A stretch of DNA of 64,000 nucleotides from Candidatus Saccharimonadota bacterium (lineage in GTDB: Bacteria; Patescibacteriota; Saccharimonadia; Saccharimonadales; Saccharimonadaceae): contig JAFXGL010000007.1 in NCBI GenBank assembly GCA_017513185.1, positions 19,739-83,738 on the forward strand, read 5' to 3'. This document shows positions 18,764 to 36,951 of this stretch, piece after piece. A program made the position numbers and the translations under genes. The notes beneath the pieces are model-generated. The model searched no databases and was not told the DNA's origin. It was given only the letters and a program-made list of their open reading frames with translations. Numbering within the stretch: position 1 is the first letter of the stretch; the number at the start of each line of letters is the position of its first letter.

Positions 18764-20137
18764 TTATTCTTCGGAATGCTCTTTGTCGAGCGACATGAAG
18801 CGTAAGAGTTCGGGGTGGAAGTAGAGCTCGATGGTGCCGACCGGGCCGTGGCGGTGCTTGGCGATGATGAGCTGAGTGATGTGGGTCTCTTCGTAGCCTT
18901 CCTTGCCTTGATTGTAGTAGTCGGGGCGGTGGAGGAACATGACAAGGTCGGCGTCTTGCTCAATGGAGCCGGATTCACGGAGATCGGAGAGGACCGGGCG
19001 AGGGTCGTCACGGCCAGTGACGGAACGGGAGAGCTGAGCTAGGGCGACGACGGGGATTTCTAGTTCCCTGGCGAGCTGTTTGAGGCTGCGAGAAATCTCG
19101 GTAACTTCCTGGACGCGGTTGCCGGTGCGGCGGTAGACCTCGGAGCCACTTAAGAGCTGGAGGTAGTCGATGATGATGAGGCCAATGTCGTGGTCGTGGA
19201 CGGCGCGGCGGGCTTTGTTACGGAGTTCTAGGACGGTCATGTTGGAGGTGTCATCGAGGTAGAGGGGGATGGAATCCATTTCTTCCAAAGCGTCGCCGAT
19301 TTTGCCGTAATCTTCTTCGGTGACATTGCCGGTGCGAATTTTCCAGTTGTCGACGCCGGAGATGTCGGAAATCATACGGTCGACGATTTCTTGGTTGGCC
19401 ATTTCCATGGAGAAAAAGAGGACGCCACGGCCGTTGATGCTGGCGGTGTTATACGCGAGGTTTTGGGCGAAGGTGGTTTTTCCCATGGCCGGGCGGGCGC
19501 CGATAATCACGAGGTCGCCTTTTTGGAGGCCGGCGGTCTTTTTGTCGAGGTCACGAAAGCCGGTCTTGAGGCCGCGGAGGGCGCCTTTGTTGTTGTGGAG
19601 TTCTTCCATGCGGTCGAAAGCGTCGGCGAGGAGAGACTCTAGGGCGACGTAGTCGGTCTTGGTGATTTGGTCAGTGACGGTGTAGAGTTCTTTTTCGGCG
19701 GAGCCGAGGAGTTCGTTAATGTCGGTGGATTCTTCGTAGCCGGATTCGGAGATGGCGGTGCCGGCGCTAATCAAGCGGCGGCGAATGGCAGCATTGGCGA
19801 CAATCTTCGCGTAGGCCTCGGAGTGGGTGGCGGTGGGGACGAAGTTGGTGAGCTCGGTGAGGTAGGCGGCGCCACCGACGCTCTTTAAATCCTTCGTTTT
19901 GCGGAGTTCGGCGGTGAGGGTGAGGAGGTCGATGGGCGAGTGGTGCTGGTAAAGGGAGGTCATGGCGTGGAAGATTTTGCCGTGGCGTTCGTCGTAAAAG
20001 TCGCGGTATCTGACGATTTCTAGAAGGTCGGGGAAGTTGGTGTCGGACAGCAAAATGGCGCCGAGTAGAGACTTTTCGGCGTTGAGATCCTGGGGCGGAA
20101 TGCGACCACCGGATGAGTTAGAACGGGATTCCTCCAT
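18764..20137 (-). CDS. dnaB: Replicative DNA helicase DnaB
   Basis: Hexameric helicase that unwinds DNA ahead of the replisome; 457 residues, normal length, no intein. The N-terminal helical domain starts with PPQDLNAEKSLLGAIL. The RecA-like domain has Walker A GARPAMGKTT, the Walker B region IGLIIIDYLQLL, and an arginine-finger region near KHRHGPVGT. The start at 20137 has AGGAGGT 9 bp upstream and overlaps the end of dnaX by 20 bp, so helicase and clamp loader are co-expressed. Confidence 0.96.
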   Translation of the reverse strand: MEESRSNSSGGRIPPQDLNAEKSLLGAILLSDTNFPDLLEIVRYRDFYDERHGKIFHAMTSLYQHHSPIDLLTLTAELRKTKDLKSVGGAAYLTELTNFVPTATHSEAYAKIVANAAIRRRLISAGTAISESGYEESTDINELLGSAEKELYTVTDQITKTDYVALESLLADAFDRMEELHNNKGALRGLKTGFRDLDKKTAGLQKGDLVIIGARPAMGKTTFAQNLAYNTASINGRGVLFFSMEMANQEIVDRMISDISGVDNWKIRTGNVTEEDYGKIGDALEEMDSIPLYLDDTSNMTVLELRNKARRAVHDHDIGLIIIDYLQLLSGSEVYRRTGNRVQEVTEISRSLKQLARELEIPVVALAQLSRSVTGRDDPRPVLSDLRESGSIEQDADLVMFLHRPDYYNQGKEGYEETHITQLIIAKHRHGPVGTIELYFHPELLRFMSLDKEHSEE

Positions 20138-24620: not shown

Positions 24621-25472
24621 ATGAAAATTGGTATGTTGGGGGCGGGGGTGTATGGTATAGCTATAGCGAAGGTGCTGCGGGCAAACGGGCACCATGTGAA
24701 GTTTTATGACCCATATCGTTACCCGGAGGTGTTACTGGAGGAGATTGTGCGGTATGCGCAGGTGTTGTTTGTGGCGACGCCGGCGGAGGTGGTGTCGGGG
24801 CTACTAAAGCAGATGCCAGCTGCGGCCTATGAGAAGCCAGTGATTATCCTGACCAAGGGCGTGATGAAGCCGGAGGTGTGGGGAGATTTCCGGTACTTTG
24901 AGCTGGTGAGTGGGCCAGGGTTTGCGGAGGAGATTGAGCGGGGCAAGCGCGTGAAGCTGACCGTGGCAGCGAGAGGGGCGTGTGAAGGTGAGACGTTGGC
25001 GGAAGATTTACTGTCGAACGCGCAGGTGAAGTTTGACAAGACGGACGACGTGGCGGGTGTGGCGATGCTGTCGGGTCTAAAAAATATCTATGCCATAGAG
25101 GCGGGCAGGCGGGGACTGGCCTTTGGCTCTAGTGATTTTAAGGAATATGTGGCGGATGCGGCGAGAGAATGTGAGCAGTTTCTACTGAAGAATGGTGGGT
25201 TTATTGAGACCGTGCGGCTGAGCGCTGGGCTGGGTGATTTGGTGTTAACTTGCGGTAGCGAGCAGAGCCGGAATTACCGCTTTGGACAACTCTTGGGTGG
25301 GCGGCGAAATGCCTTGGAGCGTCGACGTTTGGTGCGCAAGTTTTTGCGTGAGACGACGGTGGAGGGGCTGTTTGCGGCACGCGGGATTTTGAAGAAGGAT
25401 TTGACCGTACCAAAAGAGGCAGAAATTTTAACCAACATACTCAGGAGGATTAAGAATGTCACTAAACGCTAA
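24621..25472 (+). CDS. gpsA: Glycerol-3-phosphate dehydrogenase [NAD(P)+]
   Basis: Reduces dihydroxyacetone phosphate to sn-glycerol 3-phosphate for membrane lipids. It has 283 residues, shorter than the usual 320-340. The Rossmann motif is GMLGAGVYGIAIA; SGPGFAEEI, GLKNIYAIEAG and SAGLGDLVLTCGSEQSRNYRFG match the catalytic domain. The coenzyme-binding half is trimmed. The 3' end overlaps the helicase gene by 17 bp, so the two share a transcript. Confidence 0.88.
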   Translation: MKIGMLGAGVYGIAIAKVLRANGHHVKFYDPYRYPEVLLEEIVRYAQVLFVATPAEVVSGLLKQMPAAAYEKPVIILTKGVMKPEVWGDFRYFELVSGPGFAEEIERGKRVKLTVAARGACEGETLAEDLLSNAQVKFDKTDDVAGVAMLSGLKNIYAIEAGRRGLAFGSSDFKEYVADAARECEQFLLKNGGFIETVRLSAGLGDLVLTCGSEQSRNYRFGQLLGGRRNALERRRLVRKFLRETTVEGLFAARGILKKDLTVPKEAEILTNILRRIKNVTKR

Positions 25473-28400
25473 ACAAAAAGAGGCGGTGGAATATATTCAG
25501 GGGCCGTTATTGGTCTTGGCCGGGCCGGGGACGGGCAAGACTTTTTTGTTGTCTAACCGCGTGGAGTATATCCTCAAAAATACCGATACAAATCCGGAGA
25601 ATATTTTGTGTCTCACCTTTACCGAAAACGGGGCGACACATATGCGCGAGAAGCTGGCGGCGACGGTGGGCAAAGAGGCGCGGCGACTAGAAATCCATAC
25701 TTATCATGGGTTTGGGACGGATATTTTGAATGAGTATAAAAACTATGCGACGGAGTTTACGCGCAATCTTGACCAGCCGATAGACGAAGTGAAGCAATAT
25801 AAGATTGTGAAGGAGATTCAGGAGAGTCTGCCGGCGATGGATATTTTGCGAACGGGGACGACTGGCGACATTGTAAAAACGATTCAGGGCGCAAAGTCAG
25901 CACGACTGACGGGTGAGGATTTGCTGAAAATTGCCGAGCAGAATATGCAGGATGCGCGAGCGATGAGCGCGGAGGCGTCGCCGATTTTGAAAGAAGTGAA
26001 GCCGCGGATGCAGTTTGAGGTGGCAAGAGATACGGTGTATCGGCCGCTGCTAGAAGTTTTCACGAAGCATACTGCGCAGAAGAATATTGTGGGAGAGATT
26101 GAGCCGCTGGCGAATTTCTTAGCGCGAGAGTTGAAGCGTTTGCTGGATGCGGAGGAGGAGAAGGAGAAGCCGAGCGTGAGCCCGCTGACGCAATGGCGCA
26201 ATAAGACGTTTGAATTGGATGAAAATAACGAGTACCGACTGAAGACGCGCGTGGCAGATCTGAAGCTGAAGTCGTTTGCGAATATTGTGATGCTGTATAA
26301 TGCGCGGCTGGAGAAGGAAGGGCTGTTTGACTTTGCGGATATGATTGAGCAAGCGATTGGGTTTTTGAAGCACGATAAAGGTTTCCGTCTGACGATGCAG
26401 GAGAAGTTCCAATATGTGCTACTAGACGAGTTCCAGGATACGAACCCGAGCCAGTTTGAGCTGGTGAAGCTGCTGACGGACTATGAGCAGCCGAACGTGA
26501 TGGCGGTGGGCGATGATGATCAGGCTATCTTTGAGTTCCAGGGGGCGGACGCGTCGAATTTGATGGTGTTTCAGCAACATTACGGTGCGAAGGTGATAAA
26601 CCTAGAGGAAAATTACCGGAGCAATCAAGAGATTTTGGATTTGTCGCGCAAAGTGGCAGACCAGATTGAAGGGAGTTTTGCAAAAGACCAGGGGTTGACG
26701 AAGAATTTGACGGCGACGCACGGGGTCGGGGCGGAGATACGTCGCGATGAATTTTTGACTAGCGACCAAGAGTATGAATTTGTGGCGGAGGAAATTGCGA
26801 AGTTGATTGACCAGGGAGTGCCGCAGAAAGAGATTGCGATTATTGCGCCGAAGCACAAATATATTGCGCCACTATTGCCATTCCTGAAGGCCACGGGCAA
26901 GATTAACGTGGCGTATGAGCGCAAGGAAGATTTGTTGGAGGACCCGCGACTGTCGGAGATTTTGACGTTGGCGAGGTTTGTATATGGGCTAAGCCAGGGT
27001 AAGAATGTTTCCAGCCGGTTGCTTGAGATTTTGAGCTATGATTTTTGGAAACTAAACCCGGCGGAGGCGATAAGCTGCGTGTATGCAGCGAAGCGGGAGC
27101 GACGGGCGCCGATTGACTTTTTGGTGAAGTCGGAGTCGCCGAAGCTGCGGGAGATTGGCGAGTGGCTGGCGATTCTTGCGATGAAGTCGTTTGATACGCC
27201 GCTGGAGCTGATGCTGGACTATTTGGTGGGGACGGTGGCGGTGGAGCTGCCGGCAGAAGTGAGCGATGATGAATCGCCGGAGATTTCTCGCGAGGGGGCG
27301 TTGCTCCGAGATGGGCGGGAGTTTAGGAGTCCGTTTATCCAGTATTACGATGAGGAGCTGAGCGAGTACGAGACGTTTGAGCTGTATGAAAATCTGGCCG
27401 TGCTGAAGCAGGCGATTGTGGCGCATACGGGGCGGAACAATCCGAAGCTCGCGGATTTGATAGAGATGCTGGATGACTACGAGATGGCGAAGGCGCCGCT
27501 GATTAATACTTCGCCGTATCGTGATGGTGATGACGCGGTGCAAATCGTGACGGCGCACAAGGCGAAGGGGCTGGAGTATGAATATGTGTTTCTGATAGCG
27601 ACGGATAATCTCAACTGGGGCAGAGCGAAGGGTAATAATACCATGTTTACCTTGCCAAAGAATGTGGCGCAGATTCGTCATACTGGGATTACGGATGACG
27701 AGCGGTTGCGGTTGCTATTTGTGGCGATTACGCGGGCGCGAAGTGTGCTGTATATGACTAATAGTTTGAAGGATTTTGCAGGGAAAAGCCCGGCGCGGCT
27801 AGATTATCTGGAAGAGTACGAGAAGGAAGATGAAAAGACGCACGAGAAGCGGCTGATTTCTCCGTTTGTGGAGAAGGTGGTGACGCATTATGATGATTTG
27901 AAGGGGCTACGTGGGAAGGTGGACCTGCGTAAGACTTGGCGGGCGGCCTATACGAAGCCCAATCCGGAGCTGCGCCCGATACTGTTGCAGCGGATGGAAG
28001 GATATAAGCTATCTGCCAGCGACCTGACGAGTTTCATCGACATAGCCTATGGTGGGCCGATGGCGTTTTATGCTAGCCGAGTGCTGAAAAATCCGCAAGA
28101 GCCGGCGACGGGGAGTATGATTTTTGGGACGCTGGTACATGCGGTGTTTGAGAAGATGACTAAGGCAGCGGCGAGCGGTGAGGAGTTTACGGATGAGGAG
28201 GCGCTGAAGTTTTACCGAGAGGAGGCGGAGCAGGCAAATTTGGAGCCAAAGGAGGTGAAATATTTGCTGGAGAAGGGCGAGGCGAGCCTGAAAATTGCTC
28301 TTGATAGTTTCCGGGAGATTTTGCGAGACCCGGCTGCGCGGGCGGAGGTAAATCTCGCGAGTGAGCATCCGGAGGTGGGCGGAGTGCCAGCGCTGGGCGT

Positions 28401-28815
28401 GGTGGACCATATGCATATCGACGAGGAGAAGAAAGAGATTGAGATTTATGATTTTAAGACGGGACACTACTATGAGAAAAAGTGGGGGAGCCATGAGACG
28501 CTGTATAAATATATGTTGCAGCTGGGCTTTTATAAGCTGGCGCTGGAGAGCTGCCCGGCGTATAAGAAGTATCAGGTGCGGTGGGGACATATCTTGTTTG
28601 TGACGCCGGACGAGGAGGGCAAGGTGCATGACAAGGTGCTGGACTTTGAAAAGGATTTGGACGAGGAGGAACTGAAGGCGCTGGCGGCGGCGGTATACAA
28701 GCAGGCGACAACGCTGGCGTTCCTGGATGATGAGGAGTTGAAGGTAGAGGCGGATAAGAGCCGCGGGTTGAAGGAGATACGCGAGTTTATACAGCTTTTG
28801 CTGCAGAAATCTTAA
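25456..28815 (+). CDS. UvrD/Rep-family DNA helicase fused to a PD-(D/E)XK nuclease
   Basis: This encodes 1119 residues. Superfamily 1A motifs occur in order: Walker A AGPGTGKT, CLTFTENGATHMREKL, DEFQDTNPSQFELV, GDDDQAIFEFQGAD, NYRSNQEIL, VTAHKAKGLEYEYVFL and LLFVAITRARSVLY. The C-terminal 250 residues carry a RecB/Cas4-like nuclease: GTLVHAVFEK, then GVVDHMH, IYDFKTG and LQLGFYKLALE. Such fusions (AddA/AdnB/RecB-like) resect DNA ends during repair or process incoming DNA. No Cys4 iron-sulfur motif was seen around the nuclease. The last codons lie inside a long palindrome. Confidence 0.93.
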   Translation: MSLNAKQKEAVEYIQGPLLVLAGPGTGKTFLLSNRVEYILKNTDTNPENILCLTFTENGATHMREKLAATVGKEARRLEIHTYHGFGTDILNEYKNYATEFTRNLDQPIDEVKQYKIVKEIQESLPAMDILRTGTTGDIVKTIQGAKSARLTGEDLLKIAEQNMQDARAMSAEASPILKEVKPRMQFEVARDTVYRPLLEVFTKHTAQKNIVGEIEPLANFLARELKRLLDAEEEKEKPSVSPLTQWRNKTFELDENNEYRLKTRVADLKLKSFANIVMLYNARLEKEGLFDFADMIEQAIGFLKHDKGFRLTMQEKFQYVLLDEFQDTNPSQFELVKLLTDYEQPNVMAVGDDDQAIFEFQGADASNLMVFQQHYGAKVINLEENYRSNQEILDLSRKVADQIEGSFAKDQGLTKNLTATHGVGAEIRRDEFLTSDQEYEFVAEEIAKLIDQGVPQKEIAIIAPKHKYIAPLLPFLKATGKINVAYERKEDLLEDPRLSEILTLARFVYGLSQGKNVSSRLLEILSYDFWKLNPAEAISCVYAAKRERRAPIDFLVKSESPKLREIGEWLAILAMKSFDTPLELMLDYLVGTVAVELPAEVSDDESPEISREGALLRDGREFRSPFIQYYDEELSEYETFELYENLAVLKQAIVAHTGRNNPKLADLIEMLDDYEMAKAPLINTSPYRDGDDAVQIVTAHKAKGLEYEYVFLIATDNLNWGRAKGNNTMFTLPKNVAQIRHTGITDDERLRLLFVAITRARSVLYMTNSLKDFAGKSPARLDYLEEYEKEDEKTHEKRLISPFVEKVVTHYDDLKGLRGKVDLRKTWRAAYTKPNPELRPILLQRMEGYKLSASDLTSFIDIAYGGPMAFYASRVLKNPQEPATGSMIFGTLVHAVFEKMTKAAASGEEFTDEEALKFYREEAEQANLEPKEVKYLLEKGEASLKIALDSFREILRDPAARAEVNLASEHPEVGGVPALGVVDHMHIDEEKKEIEIYDFKTGHYYEKKWGSHETLYKYMLQLGFYKLALESCPAYKKYQVRWGHILFVTPDEEGKVHDKVLDFEKDLDEEELKALAAAVYKQATTLAFLDDEELKVEADKSRGLKEIREFIQLLLQKS

Positions 28816-28925
28816 TTTTGGCGCACTCCTGCGTCAAAGCCTCCGCTACTCACTCTCCGTATTACCGTATACGGCTCGTTCCGTTGCTCAGCTTTTCCTT
28901 GGATTGCATCCAAAATTAAAATTTC
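28806..28925. repeat. Long imperfect palindrome at the helicase-nuclease gene end
   Basis: A left arm of 16 bases (28806-28821) and a right arm (28910-28925) match with one mismatch, including TTAATTTTGG/CCAAAATTAA. The interior contains CCGTAT/ATACGG (28857-28874). The TAA stop of the helicase lies in the left arm. Total 120 bp, the same size as the palindrome at 36342-36461. Confidence 0.7.
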
Positions 28926-28931
28926 TTATGG

Positions 28932-29217: not shown

Positions 29218-29639
29218 TCTTTGTGTTTAGACTGGTAGTCTTTGATGGCTTGGTGGAGGGCCTGGTGGCCGAGGACAGAGCAGTGAAATTTATGTTCGGG
29301 GAGGCCGCCGAGGTAGTCACAGATTTCTTTGGCGGAGATTTTATCGGCGTTTTCTAGCGTGCGGCCTTTAGCGAGTTCGGAGAGAGCCGAGGTGCTGGCG
29401 ATGGCCGATGCGCAGCCGTAAGTTTTCCAGCCGATGTCGGCGATTTTATTGTTTTTAACGCGGATTTTGACGAGCATTTGGTCGCCGCAGACGGGGTTGC
29501 CGACGAGGCCTTCGCCGTCAGCCTTCCATTTGGCTTCGTCACCCATGATGAAATTGCGGGGGTTTAGGAAGTGGTCTTTGACGATGTCGGTGTAAGCCCA
29601 GTTGTTGGCGGTCTTGGGGGCAGTGTGATTTTCAGACAT
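29214..29639 (-). CDS. iscU: Fe-S cluster scaffold, IscU/SufU family
   Basis: This encodes 141 residues. The three cluster-ligand cysteines are present in NPVCGDQM, YGCASAIAS and FHCSVLG, with an Asp after the first as in active scaffolds. The protein accepts sulfur from the cysteine desulfurase next door and builds [2Fe-2S]/[4Fe-4S] clusters. It starts by TAATG coupling to iscS. No other cluster-assembly genes are in the window, so a minimal desulfurase-plus-scaffold system is likely. Confidence 0.93.
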   Translation of the reverse strand: MSENHTAPKTANNWAYTDIVKDHFLNPRNFIMGDEAKWKADGEGLVGNPVCGDQMLVKIRVKNNKIADIGWKTYGCASAIASTSALSELAKGRTLENADKISAKEICDYLGGLPEHKFHCSVLGHQALHQAIKDYQSKHKE

Positions 29640-30979
29640 TAAGATTTTCCTTGTTTAATGGTTGAAAGGTCTTGGATTTTGGCGATAATTGGAGGGAGTT
29701 TGGCGAGGAGCTCGTCGATTTCTGCTCTCGTGGTGGTGAGGCCGAAGGAGAAGCGGACGGAGCCGTGGGCGATTTCGGCGTCGTGGTACATGGCCATGAG
29801 AACGTGGCTGGGCTCGAGGTCGCCGGAGGCGCAGGCACTGCCGGTGGAGACTTCGATGTTTTCTAGGTCGAGGTAGAGCTGGGTGGATTCGCCTTCGGCG
29901 GCCGGGAAGCTAATATTCAGAATGTTTGGAAGACAAACAATAGGCTCCTTTCTCGCTTGGAAAAATTCAGTCTGATTTCCGTCGTCGACTAGGCGTGCAG
30001 AGCGCGATGCGCTTCGGGTAGCACCGGCCATCGATCGCGCTCTTTCGTAGTCTCCTCCGGAAATCCGTGAATTTTCTTTAATAAGCTCAAAAGGACCTAT
30101 TGCTTTGTCTTCTATCGGCGTTATTATCTTTGCACTTGGTATTTTTTTCTTTATTTCTTTCGCCAGGTAATCTCTTAGTTTTGCCACTTCTTGATATTTA
30201 TTTAGATTTTTCTTGGCTTCTTGGGCTGCGACTTTGAAGCCGCTGGCGAGGAGGACGTTGGAGGTGCCGGCGCGGCGTTTGTTTTCTTGGGCGCCGCCCA
30301 TAATTAAGGGTTTGAAGGGGCTGCCAGGGCGGATGTAGAGGGCGGCGATGCCGACAGGGCCGCCGAGTTTGTGGGAGGTGAAGGTGAGGTAGTCGCAGTT
30401 TAGAGCCTTGACGCTGACGGGGATTTTACCGACGGCTTGGGTGGCGTCGGTGTGGAGGTAAATCTTGGTGTGCGTGGATTTTTTGAGGTCTTGGATGAGC
30501 TGGGCGACCTCTGCGACGGGCTCGATGGTGCCGGTTTCGTTATTAGCGAGCATAACGGAGACGAGAATTTTCTGCTTTGGGTCTTTTATGATGGTCTTTT
30601 CTAGTTCGGTTTGGAGAAAGTTTATGTCGATAATTCCCTGCTGGTTTACCGGGATTTTGGTGCAGGGGGCGCCGTAAGCTTCGGCCGGATGGAGGACGGA
30701 GGGGTGTTCGATGGCGGAGACGAAGATGGGACAGCCCTCGAAAGTGCGAATGACGGTGTTGTTGGATTCGCTGCCGCCGGAGGTGAAAATCACCGATTGG
30801 GGTCGCGCCTCTATAAGTTGCGCGACTTCGGAGCGCGCTCTATTCAGTAAGGATTTGCCGGTCTGGCCGGCGGAGTGGAGGCTTGACGGATTGCCGAGGT
30901 CGAGCTCCATGATGCGGAGCAGTTCCTTTTTGACCGCTGGTAAAAGCGGGGTGGTGGCGGAGAAGTCTAAATAAATCAT
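29639..30979 (-). CDS. iscS: Cysteine desulfurase (IscS/NifS) with a palindrome-encoded insertion
   Basis: PLP enzyme that mobilises sulfur from cysteine; 446 residues from ATG 30979 (leaderless, 8 bp after TGT-TATAAT). MIYLDFSATTPL opens the protein, the PLP lysine is in FTSHKLGGPVG, and the catalytic loop is STGSACASGDLEPSH with Cys383. Between about residue 290 and the motif LPNILNISF lies an extra segment of roughly 50-60 residues, Arg/Ser-rich (RARSMAGATRSASRSAR). It coincides with a 180-bp inverted repeat (29931-30110); ordinary family members have only a short loop there. The frame stays open. Confidence 0.92.
   Translation of the reverse strand: MIYLDFSATTPLLPAVKKELLRIMELDLGNPSSLHSAGQTGKSLLNRARSEVAQLIEARPQSVIFTSGGSESNNTVIRTFEGCPIFVSAIEHPSVLHPAEAYGAPCTKIPVNQQGIIDINFLQTELEKTIIKDPKQKILVSVMLANNETGTIEPVAEVAQLIQDLKKSTHTKIYLHTDATQAVGKIPVSVKALNCDYLTFTSHKLGGPVGIAALYIRPGSPFKPLIMGGAQENKRRAGTSNVLLASGFKVAAQEAKKNLNKYQEVAKLRDYLAKEIKKKIPSAKIITPIEDKAIGPFELIKENSRISGGDYERARSMAGATRSASRSARLVDDGNQTEFFQARKEPIVCLPNILNISFPAAEGESTQLYLDLENIEVSTGSACASGDLEPSHVLMAMYHDAEIAHGSVRFSFGLTTTRAEIDELLAKLPPIIAKIQDLSTIKQGKS
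29931..30110. repeat. Long imperfect palindrome inserted in-frame in iscS
   Basis: The outer arms are AGACAAACAATAGG (29931-29944) and CCTATTGCTTTGTCT (30096-30110). Pairing continues inward through AAATTCA/TGAATTT, GATTTCCG/CGGAAATC, GACTA/TAGTC and GAGCGCGAT/ATCGCGCTC. The length is 180 bp, exactly 60 codons, and it is open in the coding frame. Confidence 0.8.
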
Positions 30980-30986
30980 CTCTTTA

Positions 30987-30995
30987 ATTATAACA
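30987..30995 (-). promoter_or_regulatory. Extended -10 promoter of iscS, leaderless type
   Basis: TGT-TATAAT on the minus strand ends at 30987, 8 bp before the ATG at 30979. Confidence 0.65.
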
Positions 30996-30999
30996 CTAG

Positions 31000-31160
31000 A
31001 AAACATCTTATTATCCTTTTCGATAGAAATTTTTAGTCAAGAATTATTTTTGGTTTAATCTGTTTCTCCGTCGCGGATGGGACGCGTGCTCGAAACGACT
31101 AAACCAAAAATAACTCATTGTAAAAATTTTTTATTATCTCAAAGAATAATAAGATGTTTT
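31000..31160. repeat. Long imperfect palindrome between the LOG-family gene and iscS
   Basis: AAAACATCTTATTAT (31000-31014) is the exact complement of ATAATAAGATGTTTT (31146-31160). Inside, AATTTTTA/TAAAAATT-like blocks and TTATTTTTGGTTTA/TAAACCAAAAATAA pair again, leaving a GC-rich tip around 31067-31096. The right arm ends in the stop codon of the LOG gene. It may terminate that gene upstream of the iscS promoter. Confidence 0.8.
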
Positions 31161-31897
31161 TATATTGTTGACGTTTTATGTTGTGCGCTGGCGAAGCCGT
31201 CGTAGTAGTTGGTCTTGACCTTGGGGTGGCCGATTTTGTTGGCGGCTGCGACGATTTCTTCGATGCTGTCGGTGAGCTTGTAGATTTTGCGGTCAGCGGG
31301 GTTGATGGTCTTAAGCGCGGTCATCTTGGTGGCGTAAAAGCGGTCGAGAGGTTTCCAGAAGGATTTGCCAAAGAGGAACATGGGCATGACGGGCATCTTT
31401 TTTTCTTGCATCAGAATGAGGACTTCGGAGAATTCGTCCATAGTGCCGAAGCCGCCTGGGAAGAAGACGTAGACTTTGGCGCTCATGGCGAGCATGACTT
31501 TGCGGGCGAAGAAGTATTCGAACTGGAGCATGTCGGTGAGGTAGGGGTTGGGATGTTGCTCGTGGGAGAGGGTGATGTTGAGGCCGATGGAGCGACCGCC
31601 GTACTCGAAGGCGCCGCGGTTGGCAGCTTCCATGATACCGGGGCCGCCACCGGTGATGACGGCGTGGCCATTTTGGGCGAGGAGGGCGCCGAGTTCGCGG
31701 GCGGCTTTGTAGTATTTGTTGGTCTCTTTGATGCGAGCGGAGCCATAGATGGTGACGCCCTGGGGGAAGGTGCGGACGATTTTGAGGCCGTTTAAGAGGT
31801 CTTTAGCGTAGGCCTGGGCGCGGTCGTAGTCGGCGCTTTCGAGCTCGGCAAGGAGCTTGTGTTGGTATTTAGCGATGTCTTCAGCGGATGGTGTCAT
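31160..31897 (-). CDS. LOG-family (TIGR00730) Rossmann-fold protein
   Basis: This encodes 245 residues. The signature GGGPGIMEAANRGA and the later PGGFGTMDEFSEVL are the PGGxGTxxE motif of cytokinin-riboside-monophosphate phosphoribohydrolases (LOG/YgdH/PpnN group), which release free bases from nucleoside monophosphates. The real bacterial substrate is probably a purine nucleotide. The start at 31897 has AAGGA upstream. It follows the PfkB kinase by 10 bp and closes the sugar-phosphate run. Confidence 0.88.
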   Translation of the reverse strand: MTPSAEDIAKYQHKLLAELESADYDRAQAYAKDLLNGLKIVRTFPQGVTIYGSARIKETNKYYKAARELGALLAQNGHAVITGGGPGIMEAANRGAFEYGGRSIGLNITLSHEQHPNPYLTDMLQFEYFFARKVMLAMSAKVYVFFPGGFGTMDEFSEVLILMQEKKMPVMPMFLFGKSFWKPLDRFYATKMTALKTINPADRKIYKLTDSIEEIVAAANKIGHPKVKTNYYDGFASAQHKTSTI

Positions 31898-36261: not shown

Positions 36262-36322
36262 AAGTTTCCCTCCCTTGTAAATGTGCATGTTTTTGCAAAC
36301 AGGTTATGCCTTTATTATACCA
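36262..36322 (-). promoter_or_regulatory. Promoter and hairpin leader of the gene at 35212-36261
   Basis: TGG-TATAAT (36322 down to 36314) puts the start near 36307. TGTTT/AAACA with a GCAA loop (36288-36301) forms a stem near the 5' end, followed by ACATTTACAAGGGAGGG. About 18 of 20 bases around the ribosome site match the leader at 4223-4290. Confidence 0.55.
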
Positions 36323-36341
36323 CATTTTACTTATTTTTTCA

Positions 36342-36461
36342 AGAACAACAACACTCCCCTCTCAACCCCGTTCGTTCGCACCCGTCGTTACGGGGCTCAC
36401 TCACTTCGGATTTCTCGTGAGAAATCCGGGACACGGTTTCGAGGGGAGCTTTTGTTGTTCT
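36342..36461. repeat. Long imperfect palindrome downstream of rpsG
   Basis: AGAACAACAA...CTCCCCTC (from 36342) pairs with GAGGGGAG...TTGTTGTTCT (to 36461). A perfect inner hairpin CGGATTTCTC/GAGAAATCCG lies in the right half. It begins 10 bp after the rpsG stop and could terminate the S12-S7 transcript. Total 120 bp. Confidence 0.75.
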
Positions 36462-36471
36462 AACAGACCAA

Positions 36472-36951
36472 TTAAGCTCTGGCGAAGTGCGCGAAGGCGC
36501 GGTTGGCTTCGGCCATGCGGTGACAATCTTCTTTTTTCTTGAAGGCGGCGCCGGTTTCGTTGTAGGCATCGACAATTTCGGCCTCTAGGCGCTTGGCATA
36601 GGGCATGCCGCCGCGGGCGCGGGCAGCTTGGACTAGCCAGGTAAAGGCGAAATGCTGCTGGCGGTGGCCAGAAATCGGGAACGGAATCTGATAGTTAGCA
36701 CCACCGACGCGGCGGGACTTCACTTCAAAGTCCGGGGAGACATTAGCGAGAGCCTTTTCAAAGACTTCCACGGGATCTTCGGATTTCAATTTCTTGGCGG
36801 CACCTTCGAGGGCGGCGTAAACGGCGCGCTCGGCGGCTTGCTTTTTACCGTCTAGCATGGATTTGTTGATGAGACGTTGCACGAGGACGCTCTGGTAGCG
36901 GCGGTCAGGAGAGACTTTGCGCTCGAGAGATTTGGTAGTTTTGCGAGGCAT
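36472..36951 (-). CDS. rpsG: 30S ribosomal protein S7
   Basis: This encodes 159 residues, standard length. S7 nucleates assembly of the 3' domain of 16S rRNA. The N-terminus [20 protein letters not shown], the motif QRLINKSMLDGKKQAAERAVY and the C-terminal KKEDCHRMAEANRAFAHFA are typical. It starts by TAATG coupling to rpsL. The usual fusA/tufA partners of the str operon do not follow; a palindrome ends the unit. Confidence 0.96.
   Translation of the reverse strand: MPRKTTKSLERKVSPDRRYQSVLVQRLINKSMLDGKKQAAERAVYAALEGAAKKLKSEDPVEVFEKALANVSPDFEVKSRRVGGANYQIPFPISGHRQQHFAFTWLVQAARARGGMPYAKRLEAEIVDAYNETGAAFKKKEDCHRMAEANRAFAHFARA

Follow-up and report, generated by a model that had tools for sequence, protein, structure and literature searches.

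A repeated palindromic element translated within iscS of a Saccharibacteria genome, with outer arms that pair and differ from locus to locus

The iscS gene of the Saccharibacteria genome studied here contains, in its reading frame, a translated copy of a palindromic element that is repeated in a ruminant-gut type of Saccharibacteria. The element recurs in unrelated genes and genomes, is present in some relatives and absent from others at the same site, keeps the frame of every gene in which it was found, and is bordered by self-pairing arms that are specific to each locus. In our opinion it is probable that we are dealing with a non-coding mobile hairpin element of about 148 nt, whose insertion is coupled to an inverted copying of the 5' flank, by fold-back priming or by template switching, with the product X-[element]-n-rc(X).

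The window, that is the whole stretch of 64,000 nucleotides that was analysed (positions 19,739 to 83,738 of contig JAFXGL010000007.1), comes from the genome that we number G000. The features of its iscS region are as follows.

29639..31006, minus strand: iscS (cysteine desulfurase) with the in-frame insert; ORF of 455 aa, Pfam PF00266 at E 1.6e-57
29929..30112, minus strand: the imperfect palindrome in full, made up of the shared element and its locus-specific arms, from the palindrome scan and the fold
29947..30094, minus strand: the shared element, called family 1, 148 nt, termini TCTTTYGAAGCG...GCGARAAAGA, found 20 times among the 175 genus genomes, in 7 of them; limits derived from L102:1506-1653
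30096..30112, minus strand: gene-5' outer arm X, judged native by similarity to the insert-free G103
29929..29944, minus strand: gene-3' outer arm, with an outer end that overlaps the native CLP codons; judged an inverted copy of X
29945..29945, minus strand: extra unpaired base between the end of the family-1 element and the inverted copy
30015..30034, plus strand: hairpin tip CGGGTAGCACCGGCCATCGA, common to a second palindrome family

An earlier note on this DNA had claimed nested inverted arms at this place, within the open iscS frame. Both observations hold: on the gene strand, 29931-30110 has a folding energy of -79.6 kcal/mol, whereas 200 shuffles give -46.97 +/- 4.02 and none of them reaches it (z -8.1), and the segment lies inside the iscS ORF. 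The note's figure of 180 nt, or 60 codons, is right as the size of the palindrome and wrong as the net insertion, which between the flanking matches is 174 nt, or 58 codons, against both G047 and G076, the nearest relatives by iscS DNA (about 74-80% identity). A seed-and-extend scan with a score of at least 24 found two palindromes in the window, this one and another at 30992-31169, versus none in 3 shuffles; with a score of at least 18 it found five, versus one in total across 5 shuffles. A cruder 180-nt fold scan, since replaced by the palindrome scan, gave 124 windows with at least 48 nested pairs versus 136 in the shuffle, thus long-range pairing as such is ordinary in the window and it is the tight palindromes that are unusual. 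With the NifS/IscS models of NCBIfam the protein matches on either side of the insert, in two separate stretches, at scores under the curated cut-offs. No family of Pfam or NCBIfam matches the inserted peptide; NCBIfam presumably contains a model for the Rickettsia palindromic elements (RPEs).

The alignment of IscS from relatives gives a clean presence or absence of the segment; the note had started from a short loop as the usual state of IscS/NifS proteins. Seven relatives (G047, G076, G103, G181, G002, G134 and G129) have the short loop with no insert, and in G124 a longer palindromic insert, related to ours, occupies the site; the case that would have refuted the note's reading, a segment carried by all close relatives with no palindrome in it, is thus not what is seen. 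The insert directly precedes CLPNILNISF, and the spacing from ITP to LPN is 61 residues with it versus 3 in G047 and G076. In the solved homologue 9wep the chain is contiguous at this point: the stretches matched on either side adjoin at residue 290. The invariant columns of the alignment include what we take to be the PLP-lysine and catalytic-cysteine motifs. An AlphaFold2 model from 17 sequences (mean pLDDT 81.4, pTM 0.80) places residues 301-352, the insert, below pLDDT 50 and without regular structure, and this supports the view that the protein would tolerate the insert as a disordered segment. Residues 1-6, 236-248 and 391-396 are also below 50, and since the last of these is the catalytic loop, the model is no proof of activity.

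The twenty copies of family 1 come from a translated search of the 175 genus genomes, which would detect antisense copies in genes and would miss copies with a decayed peptide frame. Fourteen lie inside genes, all sense, in frame and with the frame open; none is antisense or out of frame in a gene. The other six are intergenic, all in G134, and two of them have TGA in the frame. The genic copies, in genes that we name from sequence and from motifs as we presume them to be, are in iscS (G000, G124), der (G016, G129, G134), dnaX (G047, G129, G134), valS (G129 twice, G134), tatD (G022), obg (G134) and a membrane protein (G000); dnaX of G047 is 168 nt longer than that of G000. The same DNA stands in unrelated genes and genomes at 82-88% identity, and a DNA search of the own genome with the element, which the note had proposed, returned eight matches, two of them long. 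The note's suggestion of a mobile or duplicating palindromic element that survives inside coding sequence is supported by this distribution, and RPEs, which it had named as the precedent, indeed are an apt one: here too palindromes occur both in frame in conserved genes and between genes.

The element has an imperfect terminal inverted repeat, CTTTYGAAG / CTTTCTCG, and in 14 of 34 of its paired columns both sides have changed, a covariation that fits either repeated templated correction or selection. About 30 nt of its tip are common to the second, intergenic family in G000, G017 and G076. With 3 mismatches allowed, the tip pattern matches in 10 of 100 genomes, and only in G000, G016, G017, G047 and G076 are the matches palindromes by fold or context; those in G013, G046, G081, G084 and G104 look like chance, a reversed control having also matched in 3 genomes. 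Among GTDB contigs the exact tip was found in 13 stretches from three assemblies, RGIG2518, RGIG5719 and RGIG5734, all of them Candidatus Saccharibacteria and all from the gut of goats or sheep, a count that may leave out the own genome.

Family 1 has company. Palindromes of other families stand in frame in ValRS, IscS and Der. Loop 1 of ValRS carries unrelated in-frame palindromes, recognised by folding, in 7 of 13 aligned genus species (G134, G129, G012, G007, G003, G004, G001), and a second ValRS site, the beta-hairpin before VSTTRPET, carries them in 4 of 14 species (G129, G134, G012, G005); the second site reads LW(E/D)IAYDDIIVSTTRPET or similar where there is no insert. In G014 both ValRS loops are longer and show no strong fold, and iscS and der of G005 have two palindromes each. 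We also scanned 72 loci, which amount to 165,153 bases from 22 genus genomes and 98,607 bases from 12 same-order genomes. At a score of 18 (with a seed of 7 and a minimum distance of 60, other settings than those used at 24) the genus sequences gave 23 palindromes, 17 of them in a stop-free frame of at least 180 aa, versus 0.0 per shuffle, and the same-order sequences gave 4, none coding, versus 0.6 per shuffle. At 24 the numbers were 9 (5 coding) and 2 (none coding); all these counts refer to loci that were chosen because their genes have inserts in one genome or another, and the lack of stops in a frame does not prove a gene (the 199-aa frame at L048 2868-2955 is of unclear nature). Three further palindromes of the window lie between genes.

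30992..31169, no strand assigned: intergenic palindrome immediately upstream of iscS, belonging to an unrelated family, from the palindrome scan
36342..36461, no strand assigned: intergenic palindrome with the CCCGTCGTTACGGGG hairpin, from the scan of 36320-36482
28805..28926, no strand assigned: intergenic palindrome from the scan, its left arm overlapping the 3' end of ORF 25456-28815

The inner 131 nt of the first (31013-31143) are 91.6% identical to G000:C10:37394, and the outer arms differ between the two copies and are self-complementary in each. The hairpin of the second also occurs in inserts of other species, on either strand.

Some side observations belong here. In the own genome, identical palindromes of the family that we call type A coincide with contig breaks (the end of C13, both ends of C11 and the start of C10; L005-L008), and the best pairing of their locus-specific arms suggests that C11 end joins C10 start and C13 end joins C11 start. 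The dnaX (L191) and iscS (L101) genes of G124 have yet another palindromic family, whose outer arms are similar in the two. Unrelated families seem to have a common asymmetric terminal motif, CTTTCGAAG against CTTTCTCG, and by eye there are possible kink-turn-like tandem G.A mismatches at the border of arm and core in several families.

What sets these copies apart is found at their edges. The sequence common to the family-1 copies ends inside the palindrome, and beyond it each locus has a sequence of its own in the two arms, which still pair. Arm alignment scores are 4-16 in 19 copies (the 4 belongs to the weak arms of G129 dnaX) versus a cross-locus mean of 2.5, with 2 of 338 cross-locus pairs scoring at least 8. 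The arm duplex energy of all 20 copies averages -24.1 versus -10.8 +/- 3.8 kcal/mol in 376 swapped pairs; 16 copies are beyond the swapped 5th percentile (-17.6) and 4 are not. The eight intact type-A copies behave alike (own arms -21.0 to -45.1, swapped -10.5 +/- 5.0 in 40 pairs). The palindrome at 30992-31169 and its copy on C10 do so too, with -15.9 and -27.7 for the own arms and -7.2 and -4.0 after swapping. Sixteen inserts, mostly of other families, have own values of -9.0 to -43.7 versus -15.6 +/- 5.6 swapped (minimum -31.8), several of them inside the swapped range, and dnaX of G076 is without arm pairing (-9.0).

The edges also suggest a polarity. Going outward, 13 of the 20 family-1 copies have their first unpaired base on the gene-3' side and 3 on the other, and 4 have none. 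At the second ValRS site, BLOSUM scores against the native loop are 16 and 10 on the left and 0 and 5 on the right for G005; the left residues are the closer to it in G134 and G012 as well, and G129 gives a tie (3 v 3; 4 v 6). In iscS, the 27 nt at and before the element are identical to the insert-free G103 at 22 of 27 positions. Because of these matches, at the second ValRS site in G005, G134 and G012 and in the iscS flank, we take the left arm as native: the 5' arm would be X itself and the 3' arm its inverted copy. We hold this with moderate confidence from the sequence comparisons, in which the automated test of side was only partly clear and the filled sites are set against relatives at about 75-80% DNA identity at the nearest, rather than against empty sites of the same strain level.

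How could such a product arise? The fold-back priming, the enzyme and the order of events that follow are what we infer. The element would fold as a long hairpin, with an open reading frame on one of its strands. Extension through the element would start from a strand that has X, a stretch of 10-25 nt from the gene-5' flank, at its end; being self-complementary, the element would fold back and bring its own 3' end beside X, whereupon a polymerase would add about one unpaired base and copy X back in inverted form, and the extended strand would rejoin the native sequence. The structure X-[element]-n-rc(X) is expected from an extension of this kind, because the hairpin sets the 3' end by X and X becomes the template. 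The weak arms of some copies, the seven copies with the extra base on the other side or with none, the tie in G129 and the nested case in iscS of G124 count against this route. Sense, in-frame copies in tolerant surface loops would be translated as harmless disordered peptides and survive, while other insertions in genes would presumably be lost by selection.

It is also conceivable that the element inserted without arms, in the manner of an RPE, and that a later quasi-palindrome template switch at the base of the hairpin wrote the inverted flank and keeps the arms paired. Template switching is described, in the portions cited, as creating and maintaining perfect stems (PMC8794818) and is suggested for the coding palindromes of Nematomorpha (PMC6649704), and the covariation of the family-1 pairs fits it too. 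However, the arms start at the end of the element and are present in most copies, including the near-identical, young intergenic copies of G134, whereas a later process should leave bare copies and vary in side and place. In our opinion this course of events is unlikely. We consider it quite improbable that the element targets the tips of pre-existing palindromes, so that the outer arms are what is left of the older ones. Such a preference would explain why the tip is common to two families with different arms, and why the outer arms of iscS in G124 recur in dnaX of the same genome around another centre; but insert-free relatives have no palindrome at the iscS, dnaX and ValRS sites, and the idea requires that the conserved coding sequence of every locus already contained a perfect palindrome of 30-40 nt.

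The very stable folds and the covariation would also suit a functional RNA, regulatory or processed or spliced from the mRNA. But all 14 genic copies keep the reading frame, which excision would not need, the elements are scattered among unrelated genes, and no Rfam family is found in the window at the gathering threshold; we think a functional RNA very improbable. Finally, the sites are variable loops, and one might ask whether ordinary divergence of surface loops with chance pairing would be enough. The strength of the fold and the repetition of nearly the same DNA in unrelated genes and genomes refute this practically completely.

We return to insertion coupled with inverted flank copying, since it has a further possible consequence. 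If each insertion adds captured host flank, the palindrome would grow outward in layers and the captured arms could travel with it, possibly through fold-back extension of a nascent strand, for which a reverse transcriptase is one candidate polymerase; such palindromes would be mobile elements that build themselves. We offer this tentatively and with some doubt. Two cases are relevant. The recurrence of the G124 outer palindrome in dnaX places the family-1 element of iscS inside an older palindrome, and two intergenic copies in G134 have in common an extra outer arm pair of about 26 nt, with different flanks beyond. These layers are as expected if captured arms travel, or if insertions are nested.

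Searches for a mobilising enzyme covered the Y1 transposase and RVT_1. The Y1 transposase (PF01797) was found in 0 of 15 genomes (control 5 of 14), and the reverse transcriptase domain (PF00078) in 14 of 19 genus genomes (control 3 of 14). At E<=0.001 there is no RVT_1 match in G016, G003, G004 and G010, all carriers of palindromic inserts, hence not every carrier has a reverse transcriptase; a later loss is possible. The proteins (among them G000:C11:12990 and C10:6602; L206, L212) have IGNLSSQ and YVDD motifs, which we take to be DGR-like; one of ten extracted candidates, L208, is a methyltransferase caught by the pattern. In G017 a reverse transcriptase lies about 0.5 kb from a type-A palindrome, and in G000 neither of the two is beside one. 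SbcD, which together with SbcC is a palindrome nuclease, exceeded the cut-off in 0 of 25 genomes, with 5 weaker matches below it (control 8 of 14 over the cut-off, 13 of 14 with any match). Its absence may let palindromes persist; it is at most permissive, since the non-carrier families tested are without SbcD too.

Among known systems, the closest are the RPEs and their Wolbachia counterparts, described in the cited parts of the literature as palindromes of 100-150 bp in several families, in frame in conserved genes and between genes, with one conserved peptide frame and with different families at the same sites of orthologues (PMC2229807, PMC10969869, PMC3767692; RPEs are further treated in PMC2635572). 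The Saccharibacteria element resembles them in its size, in its genic and intergenic copies and in having other families at the same sites. It differs in belonging to another, unrelated phylum, in the lack of a peptide match in NCBIfam and Pfam, and in its locus-specific inverted outer arms; the target duplication of RPEs is listed as '?' (PMC2229807), and we compared them by description only. MITEs such as ERIC, NEMIS and RUP are likewise short, palindromic, repeated and non-autonomous-looking, and the terminal inverted repeats that mark a MITE are present in our element in imperfect form. They typically have a TA and direct target duplication, as far as the cited part of PMC2229807 describes them, whereas here the flank copy is inverted (only inverted flank pairing was measured), and the searches for Y1 transposase and RVT_1 gave no parent transposon. 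REP elements with Y1 (RAYT/TnpA) transposases are also hairpin DNA repeats, but they are given as 20-40 bp and extragenic (PMC3733652, the part cited), and ours is about 148 nt and mostly genic, with no Y1 transposase in the 15 genomes searched. The mitochondrial coding palindromes of Nematomorpha lie inside translated genes as well; these are portrayed, in the cited part of PMC6649704, as nearly perfect repeats with no shared element sequence, maintained by conversion, unlike our repeated element with its imperfect stem. Our literature search in open-licence PMC papers found, among the titles and abstracts listed, no report of palindromic elements in Saccharibacteria. We see here a known kind of phenomenon, RPE-type behaviour, in a new phylum, and for the insertion signature, inverted flank plus extra base, the same search found no earlier report.

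To our knowledge, the question of how palindromes inside protein genes, RPEs among them, move has been open since 2000. The Patescibacteria provide an independent case, with several families, with hot spots in ValRS, IscS, Der and DnaX and with many empty sites for comparison. The signature of an inverted flank copy and one extra base points to a mechanism and is testable on pairs of filled and empty alleles. Further, core enzymes accommodate disordered insertions even in the very small genomes of these bacteria, a point relevant to annotation and to structure prediction. If outward growth by flank capture is true, coding palindromes would be self-building mobile elements.
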